NCBI GenBank assembly: GCA_900553165.1
Contig: USCN01000002.1
Span: forward strand, 1-23,339
Direction of reading: 5' to 3'
Origin: an uncultured Collinsella sp.
GTDB lineage: Bacteria > Actinomycetota > Coriobacteriia > Coriobacteriales > Coriobacteriaceae
DNA: 23,339 nucleotides
Below the pieces are notes generated by a model that did no database searches, was not told the origin of the DNA, and was given only the letters and a program-made list of their open reading frames with translations. This document shows, one piece after another, positions 9,204-11,689 of this stretch. A program made the translations under genes and the position numbers. Numbering within the stretch: position 1 is the stretch's first letter; the number at the start of each line of letters is the position of its first letter.

Positions 9204-10106
9204 TTAGTTGGCATGGATGATGCGGTTGAGCTCGTCGAGGTATTGCTGCAAGAGGAGAGAGGGCTTGCGCTCGTCGTGCATGATATAGCCTACGTGCATC
9301 GTTGGGGCGTCTGCTAACGGGATCGATGCCATACCCCATTGCATTTCATTGGAGAGGACACCGGTCGACAGGGTGTAGCCGTTCGACGTGATAAGTAAGT
9401 TAGTAAGTGTTCCGCGGTCCGAGATTCGTATGTTGCGGTCGCAAGGGATATAGCTAAAAGGTTCCTCGGCGTAATAGAAGGAGTTTGAGGTTCCCTGCTC
9501 AAAGCTATAACGCGTATAGGGTGTAAGGTCGGCAAGGGACAGCTGCGGGCGGCGGGCAAGCGGGTGGCGCTCGCTAACGAAGACGTGGACCGTCGCGTCG
9601 AATAGGGGATGGAAGCTCGCGCGCGCATCGGCAAAAGCCTTCTGCAGAACGCGGGCGTTAAAGTCGTCCAGATAGAGGATGCCGATGTCGCTGCGAAATG
9701 CGCGGACGTCATCGATGATCTGCGACGTGGTGGTCTCGCGCATGATGAACTCGAACTTGCTGTCGCGGCAGCGCTCGACCACGTTGACAAAGGCCTCGAC
9801 CGAAAAGGCGTAGTGCTGGGCGGAAATGGCGAGGCGGGCTTGCGGGGTACCGCCGTCCTCGTAGCGCGCCTCGAGCATGTCGGCCTGCTCTACGACTTGG
9901 CGCGCATAGCCCAAAAGCTCGGTGCCGTCGTTGGTGAGCGTGACGCCGCGGCTGGAGCGCGTAAAGATCTCCAGGTGGAGCTCCTGTTCCAGGCTTTTGA
10001 CGGCGTTTGAGATGTTGGACTGAGCGGTATAGAGGCGCTGAGCTGCGGCGTTGATTGAGCCGGACTCTGCCACGGCAATCAGAAAACGAAGCTGCTGAAG
10101 GGTCAT
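9204..10106 (-). CDS. LysR-family transcriptional regulator next to metY
   Basis: A 300-residue LysR-type regulator. The N-terminal winged helix-turn-helix is LQQLRFLIAVAESGSINAAAQRLYTAQSNISNAVKSLEQEL, followed by the linker helix and a two-lobed co-inducer domain from about residue 88. ATG 10106 is preferred over ATG 10115, because AAGGA is at a workable distance only for the former. It is transcribed divergently from metY, and a TATC-N9-GATA site lies in the shared region, 66 bases upstream of the predicted metY start point. I therefore infer that it controls sulfur amino acid synthesis and perhaps itself, sensing a sulfur metabolite such as O-acetylhomoserine, O-acetylserine or homocysteine. 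The ligand cannot be read from the sequence. Confidence 0.9.
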   Translation of the reverse strand: MTLQQLRFLIAVAESGSINAAAQRLYTAQSNISNAVKSLEQELHLEIFTRSSRGVTLTNDGTELLGYARQVVEQADMLEARYEDGGTPQARLAISAQHYAFSVEAFVNVVERCRDSKFEFIMRETTTSQIIDDVRAFRSDIGILYLDDFNARVLQKAFADARASFHPLFDATVHVFVSERHPLARRPQLSLADLTPYTRYSFEQGTSNSFYYAEEPFSYIPCDRNIRISDRGTLTNLLITSNGYTLSTGVLSNEMQWGMASIPLADAPTMHVGYIMHDERKPSLLLQQYLDELNRIIHAN

Positions 10107-10127
10107 CGACGCCATCCTTTCGATTGC

Positions 10128-10144
10128 TATCTATAAAACCGATA
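10128..10144. promoter_or_regulatory. LysR-type recognition site TATC-N9-GATA
   Basis: TATC (10128-10131) and GATA (10141-10144) flank nine bases, fitting both T-N11-A and the stricter ATC-N9-GAT form of LysR boxes. Its centre at 10136 is 66 bases before the predicted metY start near 10202, the usual recognition-site position for LysR activators, and 22 bases from the regulator's own start codon. Confidence 0.6.
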
Positions 10145-10166
10145 ACAGGTTAGCGCTTTTAAGTGA

Positions 10167-10195
10167 TTGACCGAGCGAAACAATGCTCGTACTAT
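10167..10195 (+). promoter_or_regulatory. metY promoter
   Basis: TTGACC (10167-10172) and TACTAT (10190-10195) are separated by exactly 17 bases, a good vegetative sigma factor promoter. The predicted start near 10202 gives a 5' leader of about 177 bases before metY. Confidence 0.6.
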
Positions 10196-10201
10196 TCAAA
10201 A

Positions 10202-10378
10202 CACACAAAGGCGGTAGGTAATTAAGCCAACCACGGAACGGGATGCGAAAGGAGGCCCGCATATGAATTGCTTACCAAGACGAATGCCGGGCTCCTGTTT
10301 GCGCCCGTCGGCGTGATCAGGAGACAGCGACTTACTTCTCTCTAATTTATTAACTTTTGTTCGATCAAGGAGATCATC
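10202..10378 (+). promoter_or_regulatory. Structured metY leader with alternative hairpins
   Basis: Three mutually exclusive stems can be drawn. Stem A pairs 10213-10223 with 10266-10276 (11 bp, two G-U) and encloses a small ATGCG/CGCAT hairpin that exposes AGGAGG in its loop. Stem B pairs 10245-10262 with 10284-10302 with small bulges and hides that AGGAGG. Stem C pairs 10286-10292 with 10303-10312. No U-run follows, so control, if any, is more likely translational or Rho-dependent. It matches no SAM, cobalamin or T-box motif that I know. The metY site AAGGAG lies between two GATC halves. Confidence 0.45.
10263..10316 (+). CDS. Putative 17-aa leader peptide with two Cys codons
   Basis: ATG 10263 is preceded by an ideal AGGAGG (10250-10255) at seven bases and opens a 17-codon frame, MNCLPRRMPGSCLRPSA, ending in TGA at 10314. 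The peptide has Cys at codons 3 and 12. It sits inside the structured leader of a sulfur amino acid gene, 62 bases before metY, and its ribosome site and coding bases form parts of the competing stems. This layout is that expected of a leader peptide sensing Cys-tRNA or ribosome stalling. Cys-containing upstream frames before sulfur genes are known in other Actinobacteria, but this one is not one I recognise. It is too short for codon statistics, so it could be chance. Confidence 0.45.
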   Translation: MNCLPRRMPGSCLRPSA

Positions 10379-11689
10379 ATGAGCCAGTTCATCAACAACC
10401 CCGAGCACACCTTTGGTTTCGATACCCTGCAGCTTCACGTTGGCCAGGAGAGCGCCGATCCCGCATCCGACTCCCGCGCCGTGCCTATCTACCAGACCAC
10501 GAGCTATGTGTTCCGCAATTCCCAGCACGCCGCCGACCGCTTTGGTCTTGCCGACGCTGGTAACATCTACGGCCGTCTGACCAACTCCACCCAGGGCGTC
10601 TTCGAGGACCGTATCGCCGCACTCGAGGGCGGTGTGGCAGGTCTTGCCGTCGCCTCCGGTGCTGCTGCCATCACCTATACCCTGCAGGCTCTTGCCCAGG
10701 CCGGTGACCACGTGGTGGCTCAAAAGACCATCTACGGTGGCTCCTACAACCTGCTGGAGCATACGCTCTCCCAGTTTGGCGTCGAGACCACCTTCGTCGA
10801 TGCCCATAACCTGGAAGAGGTCGAGGGGGCCATCAAGGACAACACCACGGTCATCTATCTCGAGACGCTCGGCAACCCCAACTCCGACATCCCCAACATC
10901 GACGCTATCTCCGAGATCGCCAAGAAGCACGGTCTGCCGGTTGTCGTCGACAACACCTTCGGCACCCCGTATCTGTTCCGTCCGCTGGAGCATGGTGCCA
11001 ACATCGTCGTCCACTCCGCAACCAAGTTCATCGGCGGTCACGGCACTTCGCTGGGCGGTGTGATCGTCGACGGCGGTAACTTCGATTGGAAGGCGAGCGG
11101 AAAGTACGCCCAGATCGCTGAGCCCAACCCCTCCTACCACGGTGTTTCGTTTGCCGAGGCTGCCGGTCCCGCCGCCTTCGCAACCTATGTCCGCGCCATC
11201 CTGCTGCGTGACGAGGGCGCCTGCATCAGCCCGTTCAACGCCTGGATCCTGCTCCAGGGCACCGAGACTCTGTCGCTGCGCGTTGACCGTCATGTCGAGA
11301 ACACCAAGAAGGTCGTTGAGTTCCTGGCTGGTGACAGCCATGTCGCCAAGGTGAACCACCCGAGCCTGTCTGAGCACCCCGATCACGAGCTCTATCAGAA
11401 GTACTTCCCCAACGGCGGTGCCTCGATCTTTACCTTTGAGATTAAGGGTGGCCAGGAGGCAGCTTGGAAGTTCATCGATCAACTGCAGGTATTCTCGCTG
11501 CTCGCCAACGTGGCCGACGTCAAGTCGCTCGTCGTGCACCCGGCTACCACCACGCACTCCCAGCTCTCTGCCGAGGAGCTCGCCGAGCAGAACATCACGC
11601 CCTCCACGATCCGTCTTTCCATCGGTACCGAGAACGCCGAGGATATCATTTGGGATCTGAAGCAGGCCTTCGCCGCGCTGGACGAGTAA
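10379..11689 (+). CDS. metY: O-acetylhomoserine sulfhydrylase (PLP-dependent)
   Basis: This Cys/Met-metabolism PLP enzyme makes homocysteine from O-acetylhomoserine and sulfide, the direct sulfhydrylation route to methionine. The 436-residue length fits the MetY subgroup, which is longer than cystathionine synthases. Visible landmarks are the N-terminal [14 protein letters not shown], the YGRLTNST segment near residue 65, the PLP-binding aspartate in [11 protein letters not shown] (D191) and the Schiff-base lysine K216 in [19 protein letters not shown] precedes ATG 10379. Codon use is strongly biased toward C-ending codons compared with its neighbours, suggesting high expression. It is a single-gene unit with its own promoter, structured leader and terminator, opposite a LysR regulator. 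O-acetylserine sulfhydrylase side activity is possible. Confidence 0.93.

Follow-up and report, generated by a model that had tools for sequence, protein, structure and literature searches.

A putative methionine/cysteine leader-peptide attenuator family in Coriobacteriia, with a reduced member upstream of Collinsella metY

In a stretch of 23,339 nucleotides from an uncultured Collinsella sp. (contig USCN01000002.1; the window), the gene metY is preceded by a short reading frame with Cys codons and its own ribosome binding site, which raises the question of whether translation of this frame can set the expression of the gene, and by which RNA structures. An earlier note on this DNA had described the frame as having 17 codons, an AGGAGG at seven bases, Cys at codons 3 and 12, and a distance of 62 bases from its stop to metY, and the sequence agrees with all of this (Cys codon 12 is 10296-10298). 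The transcript likely starts near 10202, which is 5' of the leader frame, because there is a match to a sigma-70-type promoter at 10167-10195. The features are listed by position in the window:

9204..10115, minus strand: LysR-type regulator gene, divergent to metY, start 147 bases before the leader start
10167..10195, plus strand: sigma-70-type promoter match TTGACC-17-TACTAT, the sole match in 10100-10400 (0.5 expected in shuffles)
10214..10218, plus strand: GTAGG element within the 5' arm of stem A, probable DNA operator half-site
10250..10255, plus strand: Shine-Dalgarno sequence AGGAGG of the leader frame, seven bases 5' of the start
10263..10316, plus strand: leader peptide frame MNCLPRRMPGSCLRPSA and stop, ATG to TGA, 17 codons, read from the sequence
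10269..10271, plus strand: Cys codon 3, candidate control codon, 23 nt 5' of the antiterminator strand
10281..10286, plus strand: CGA-ATG (Arg-Met) core codons, conserved in the family comparison
10292..10297, plus strand: predicted antiterminator strand 2, CTCCTG, overlapping codons 10 to 12
10318..10323, plus strand: predicted antiterminator strand 3, CAGGAG, pairing with 10292-10297; inner pairs 10299-10305 with 10310-10316
10324..10365, plus strand: pyrimidine-rich spacer (9 C, 4 G, 19 T, 10 A) without intrinsic terminator
10379..11689, plus strand: metY, O-acetylhomoserine sulfhydrylase, the putatively regulated gene (TIGR01326, 611.8 bits, cut-off 495.1)

A DNA search of 43 genomes of the genus found similar leader DNA in 22 of them and no DNA match in 21. 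In all 22 the frame is intact, with start, Cys3, CGA-ATG, Ser11, Cys12 and stop kept; one of them reads Lys at codon 2, and among 21 of them the silent changes are at codons 2, 4, 12 and the stop (TGA or TAA) and the replacing changes at codons 5, 15 and 16. The Shine-Dalgarno sequence was aligned in 19 close relatives, with AGGAAG in L015. The earlier note had looked to such an alignment for a conserved frame as well as for compensatory changes in two alternating stems, and it is the conserved frame, with its start, Cys codons and stop, that is found, but not the compensatory changes.

According to that proposal, stem A (10213-10223 with 10266-10276) and stem B (10245-10262 with 10284-10302) are alternative folds, and stem C (10286-10292 with 10303-10312) competes with B. 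In the 19 close relatives, 96.2% of the cells of stem A are paired (8 broken, 5 of them at one pair) and 98.1% of those of stem B (6 broken), and there is no double-sided change in either stem in this alignment. Pairing of the stem B kind, between the leader Shine-Dalgarno sequence and the Ser-Arg strand described below, is not above shuffles in 21 divergent leaders (Fisher p 0.09; window alone 0.17), and it is individually strong in L179 and L187. Stem C, checked in the window alone, needs a bulge in order to pair, as five of its seven pairs form in simple register and two do not. The whole leader is mildly stable (z -1.75, with 14 of 200 shuffles equally good), and a hairpin at 10292-10323, absent from the stems of the earlier note, has a z of -4.9 with none of 200 shuffles as stable. 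It consists of 13 pairs (10292-10297 with 10318-10323, and 10299-10305 with 10310-10316), which are paired in 100% of the cells in the 19 relatives, including five one-sided changes, spread over four pairs, none of which breaks the pairing; a shuffle control on these relatives is uninformative because no pair varies on both sides. The choice between A and B was therefore rejected, and the conserved switch is predicted to be made of the Ser-Arg codons in a hairpin with a CCGGGAG-like strand downstream.

Leaders of this kind were found 30 times in Coriobacteriia, the window included, with a common core of mostly CGA-ATG and then Ser-Arg codons that form one strand of the hairpin. The genes 3' of them are metY, other OAH-sulfhydrylase genes, metE-like genes, genes for MetQ, a cystine-type permease and an SsuA-like protein, and one MFS transporter gene. 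The short frames with a Shine-Dalgarno sequence are conserved across species in the family, the start of L195 being uncertain. A first set of 21 leaders, with the window counted as one, came from searches by metY homology and by core pattern, and all 21 read CGA-ATG, two codons, TCY, and then CGG, CGA or CGC, or in the window TGT; this conservation is partly preset, as most of them were sought by a pattern or expression that holds part of the core. Three of the 21 precede other genes, namely those for a MetE-like protein (L166), for an OAH-sulfhydrylase-type protein (L190, in G154; 229 residues of it covered), and for an amino-acid ABC permease that is nearest the cystine permease model with 162 bits, below the cut-off of 300 (L195). 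A covariance model built from the 21 leaders, R1, matched 43 of 366 genomes of the class, training members included, and added nine leaders, four of them in related genomes upstream of a MetQ/NlpA lipoprotein gene and the others upstream of genes for a MetE-like protein (L256), an OAH sulfhydrylase (L257), the MetY of G298 (L264), an MFS transporter (L267) and an SsuA-like binding protein (L268). The MetQ, MFS and SsuA-like cases were found by R1 though they are outside its training set. Of the encoded proteins, MetQ is above the cut-off of Pfam NlpA but below that of NCBIfam, and neither the MFS nor the SsuA-like protein scores high enough for a specific NCBIfam family. In the peptide of L267 (genome G241) there is an MMMMCCC run, and a strong terminator is present before the MFS transporter gene, which makes this protein a candidate methionine/cysteine transporter.

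In a sample of the phylum, R1 matched, under strict filters, 4 of 266 genomes, which are the known G040 and three that were rejected. These three matches (L273-L275), like three others of R1 (L269, L270 and L271, in G209, G250 and G329), lie in or against long reading frames without a leader. The core pattern with one mismatch gave 21 places in 17 of 65 family genomes (7 leaders, 10 places judged as chance by their context, 4 not viewed), and two pattern searches of the class gave 15 of 396 genomes (8 leaders, 7 chance) and 12 of 396 genomes (8 leaders, 4 chance). Upstream of a metY paralogue of about 45% identity, the core motif is absent in 20 of 20 loci (L133-L152), and no metY relatives were found in viral contigs. 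Orthologues of metY itself, at E <= 1e-180, are present in 67 of 396 genomes of the class, 66 of them with usable upstream sequence; G384, with 62 bases upstream, was left out of the upstream reading, and for G316 the fetched stretch comprises 297 bases upstream. A full-type leader precedes 39 of the 66 (21 belong to the group of the window and 18 do not, with that of G298 found via the model search alone), and as the other 27 are without one, the full-type leader is not essential to metY. One of the leaders (L200, locus L040) comes from a record titled Slackia isoflavoniconvertens, in which the MetY protein is 94% identical to that of the window, possibly due to gene transfer or a mixed assembly; with 11 codons it is the shortest of the 30, and it has no Met or Cys before the core.

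The helix itself can be described from the 21 leaders of the first set. Strand 2 has the consensus CTCYCGG, made up of the Ser-Arg codons and the base before them, which ends the fourth core codon, and its CCGGGAG-like partner, strand 3, lies 26-94 nt downstream in this set and as far as 117 nt away when all 30 leaders are counted. The duplex is above dinucleotide shuffles at p <= 0.05 in 19 of the 21, with L208 (0.065) and L166 of G040 (0.67) as exceptions, and the combined p of 1.5e-19 is an overstatement because the leaders are related. When the two arms are aligned without the loop, 94.3% of the cells are paired, and 6 of 10 pairs have double-sided changes, in 19 cells; none of 500 shuffles reaches any of these measures, and versions slid against each other pair in 25-55%. 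This alignment is partly circular, as the partner was located by the motif [CT]CGGGAG, or, in the window, L212, L195, L179, L190, L208, L219 and also L166, set by a longer or special string derived from the duplex, but 15 of the 19 double-sided cells are in columns 34-36, outside the locating motif. In the lineage of the window, one C-G pair of the helix has turned into U-A (column 31/54). The comparison thus supports a predicted antiterminator helix with covariation in 21 of the 30 leaders. A U-tract terminator that overlaps strand 3 is found in 11 of the 30 (for example L187, L202, L259 and L267), against a mean of 1.2 and a maximum of 4 in 40 rounds in which the 45 bases after strand 3 were shuffled. 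In the other 19, which include the window, the script rule gave no such terminator; L263 has a similar arrangement by eye and failed the rule.

Upstream of the core, Met codons are confined nearly completely to the reading frame. They make up 42 of 205 codons in frame vs 1 of 185 in each other frame in 20 leaders, 70 of 297 vs 1 of 268 and 1 of 268 in 29 leaders, where the nine added by R1 are biased because the model takes in 15 nt before the core, and 57 of 270 vs 1 of 245 and 1 of 245 when the near-duplicates L203, L260, L262 and L263 are removed. L195 was omitted from the codon counts due to its uncertain start, the leader starts were picked by Shine-Dalgarno sequence and ATG, and Met before the core was no selection criterion, except for one alternative in an expression (Met or Arg just before Arg-Met). 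For Cys, the counts are 22 of 297 in frame vs 26 of 268 (+1) and 1 of 268 (+2), and the +1 count is expected, because an ATG followed by C or T reads Cys one base on; as this frame is inseparable, the enrichment of Cys rests on the background in 16 reading frames of the window, where 87 of 5032 codons are Cys. Met is present before the core in 25 of the 30 leaders, Cys in 14 and either of them in 28, with L200 and L212 having neither. The main control codon across the family is thus predicted to be Met, with Cys second. Of the Met and Cys codons before the core, 81 of 97 lie 14-26 nt 5' of strand 2, and the last five codons before the core contain 78 of 141 Met/Cys in 29 leaders, compared to 46.7 with shuffled codon order, where none of 2000 shuffles was as high; after the core, Met and Cys account for 26 of 361 codons. 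A ribosome with its A-site codon 14-26 nt upstream would have its edge just before the strand, and one at the core ATG (8 nt) would cover the strand, so that the placement of the control codons would fit the ribosome footprint. The window has no Met codon from the start to the core and one Cys codon in this control zone, at 23 nt, which is also the distance of Cys2 in L125. As for the sensing role that had been ascribed to both Cys codons, Cys3 lies within the control zone and may have it, but Cys12 is itself part of the hairpin strand, at a position where most other leaders have an Arg codon.

In the first set CGA seemed invariant (21 of 21), but leaders found by R1 turned out to carry other codons. 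CGA is present in 25 of the 30 leaders and ATG in 29, the exceptions being the four MetQ leaders, where CGA gives way to CAC, TCC or TAC, L268 with CGG, and L264, whose ATG is replaced by CTG. In 16 reading frames of the window, CGA accounts for 19 of 284 Arg codons, and being so rare it could hold back a ribosome over strand 2; alternatively, the peptide may join in an arrest. An RNA partner for CGAATGC above shuffles was not found downstream or upstream (Fisher 0.64 and 0.10). Three genomes of family f6 (G356, G382 and G318), which are among the 27 without a full-type leader, have CGA-ATG-CC frames ending in Arg-Met-Pro-Ser/Arg-stop, without the Ser-Arg strand. The frame in G356 is Met-rich and ends MNMMMFGRMPS-stop (L236, a weak R1 match of 24.2 bits), and those in G382 and G318, likewise weak matches (L232 and L234), end MSGRMPR-stop and have no clear Shine-Dalgarno sequence; in L232 a strong hairpin, GACGCCTT with AAGGCGTC, follows right after the stop. 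Another weak match, L227, was taken to be chance. In G357 (L220), a frame rich in Met and Cys (MEMRMCTCMCKTCC; MKQRTDIVTGVIMEMRMCTCMCKTCC...) precedes metY without a core, and this frame and the three of f6 were left out of the 30. The f6 frames, in which the core is kept and the strand is missing, argue that CGA-ATG has some function of its own, and they are possibly another form of leader device.

On the DNA level, 16 of the 21 leaders have a GTAGG or CCTAC in the 130 nt preceding their start, with 4.5 expected from base shuffles, and a perfect dyad of the two is found once, as ACCTACCAGTTTGGTAGGT in L179. The element is present also before leader-less metY genes (L130 and L131; genomes G038 and G039), and for this reason the GTAGG in the 5' arm of stem A is probably a DNA site. 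It is probably the operator of a sulfur regulator, and the divergent LysR gene of the window encodes a candidate for the regulator acting there; its product is matched by several LysR models (GltC, CysB and others), all far below their cut-offs.

Methionine genes of Gram-positive bacteria are usually seen as being under the control of SAM riboswitches, Met T-boxes or repressors. The leaders precede the same kinds of genes as SAM riboswitches and T-boxes control, but no Rfam match to these at the gathering score was found in the leaders scanned. In the window, Rfam gave nothing at the gathering score, with its five weaker matches (E values up to 1) all lying away from the leader, and in 38 other loci nothing except a tRNA in L195. 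The earlier statement that the leader matches no known riboswitch class thus holds in Rfam for the window and these 38 loci, and the kind of device, leader-peptide attenuation, is a known one. Polycysteine leaderless short frames of mycobacteria, the subject of work by Canestrari in 2020, reportedly control sulfur genes. Such frames and the cys leaders in the available part of PMC1262725 are alike in that upstream Cys codons control sulfur genes, and without an obvious terminator they resemble the window; however, the Cys runs there lie near the stop, whereas the window has one Cys in the control zone, and in the family a 2:3 helix is defined and 25 of 30 leaders contain Met codons. In the same part of that source, trp, ilv and cys leaders are described in Actinobacteria; genes of other amino acid pathways are said to show no conserved structure upstream, and a methionine attenuator is not named. 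The family shares with the classical attenuators treated there (trp and ilv, Actinobacteria and Proteobacteria) the short frame with control codons and, in 11 of its 30 leaders, an antiterminator and a terminator that share a strand, but its control codons are Met and Cys, its antiterminator strand is a Ser-Arg codon pair, and a CGA-ATG core lies ahead of it. The closest precedent, which limits the novelty, is, as far as the accessible text of PMC8079986 goes, metL, a leader proposed before metNIQ in Streptomyces lividans with the peptide MSTTSDRTPATEATTTPGARCMCRRMCAF and stop. Like the family, metL has Met and Cys codons in a leader peptide before a methionine import operon, but its transcript is leaderless, no typical Rho-independent terminator was found, and the portion of the paper referred to describes no conserved antiterminator (PMC8079986). 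The part of PMC2965389 that was available contains no methionine leader peptide, and a methionine attenuator of Coriobacteriia was not recognised in the literature searched, most subscription papers lying outside that search.

As a frame with a Shine-Dalgarno sequence, placed Met and Cys codons, a covarying antiterminator, in a third of the leaders a terminator that shares its strand, and sulfur genes downstream match the classical requirements, the leader family is probably a ribosome-mediated attenuator that is tuned to sulfur amino acids. A ribosome would start the leader frame once the leader RNA emerges. When charged Met-tRNA (or Cys-tRNA) is scarce, it would stall at Met or Cys codons 14-26 nt before the Ser-Arg codons, which would thereby be free to pair with the CCGGGAG-like strand (2:3, the antiterminator), and the sulfur gene would be transcribed. 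With an ample supply, the ribosome would proceed over the Ser-Arg codons, strand 3 would be left for the terminator hairpin (3:4), and the gene would be off. In this scheme we infer the stalling, the direction of control and the action on transcription; the leader family, its gene links, the 2:3 helix with compensatory changes, the enrichment and placement of Met, and the 3:4 terminators in 11 of 30 leaders come from the comparison. The view of the earlier note that leader translation and ribosome speed choose between folds fits this evidence, but the folds are not A and B, Cys12 lies in the hairpin strand and not in the control zone, and Met is the main codon. The window is a reduced member of the family, with the core, the strong 2:3 hairpin and one control-zone Cys codon, and without a Met run or a terminator. 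Its Cys3 may be the remaining control codon, and its output step may depend on Rho, for which the composition of the spacer at 10324-10365 is compatible with a possible loading tract, or on folding around the metY start. Confidence in the route by which the window member itself acts on metY is lower than that in the family as a whole.

Other explanations have to be weighed against this attenuator. The simple model leaves the short f6 frames unexplained, and an arrest by the nascent Arg-Met-Pro peptide, or a pause at the slow CGA, in which the ribosome is held in response to an effector (for instance methionine or S-adenosylmethionine) and so masks strand 2, would account for them, for the Arg-Met that is kept at the codon level beyond the needs of the helix despite the rarity of CGA, and for the conservation of CGAATGC without an RNA partner. 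Such an arrest is nevertheless unlikely, as CGA is replaced in the four MetQ leaders and L268 and ATG in L264, the peptide before the core is highly variable save for Met and Cys, and Ser-Arg is accounted for by the helix. Very improbable is the version with stems A and B as the two states and Cys 3 and 12 as sensors: both stems are able to form in the window, but their broken cells come without any compensatory change, the Shine-Dalgarno pairing does not exceed shuffles, and codon 12 is usually Arg elsewhere and part of the hairpin strand.

For the window lineage itself, two further explanations come into question. Its leader may have lost Met sensing and the terminator and exert a Cys-responsive translational or Rho-dependent control, which overlaps with the main attenuator model and is possible, at clearly less than an even chance. 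Cys3 is kept in 22 of 22 relatives at the same distance from strand 2 as Cys2 of L125, and a pyrimidine-rich spacer follows strand 3 where the terminator is missing, but a single Cys codon is a weak sensor and Rho loading by the spacer is putative. It is rather unlikely that the Collinsella aerofaciens group has retained the leader as a relic, with metY now controlled only at its promoter by a DNA-binding regulator, possibly the divergent LysR, via GTAGG. The excess of GTAGG/CCTAC, its presence before leader-less metY genes, and the lack of both Met run and terminator in the window would suit a relic, but a decaying leader is hard to reconcile with start, Cys3, core, Cys12 and stop kept in 22 of 22, where the stop varies between TGA and TAA alone, and with five changed cells in the 13-pair hairpin that all still pair.

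Returning to the attenuator, one may go further and suppose, somewhat short of an even chance, that Coriobacteriia have a dedicated attenuator family that reads Met and Cys jointly over a sulfur regulon (metY, metE-like genes, MetQ, and cystine- and sulfonate-type uptake), in which core codons double as the antiterminator strand and the slow CGA brakes a non-starved ribosome over this strand. If true, it would have no forerunner in the literature searched as a conserved attenuator family for methionine and cysteine in which antiterminator and terminator are both defined. By way of comparison, the leader family supports the view that attenuation extends to two further amino acids, in a class to which common human gut bacteria belong, and it predicts which sulfur genes respond jointly. 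The clade of the window suggests a route by which such a switch may be reduced, with the Met run and the terminator gone and the hairpin and a Cys codon kept.
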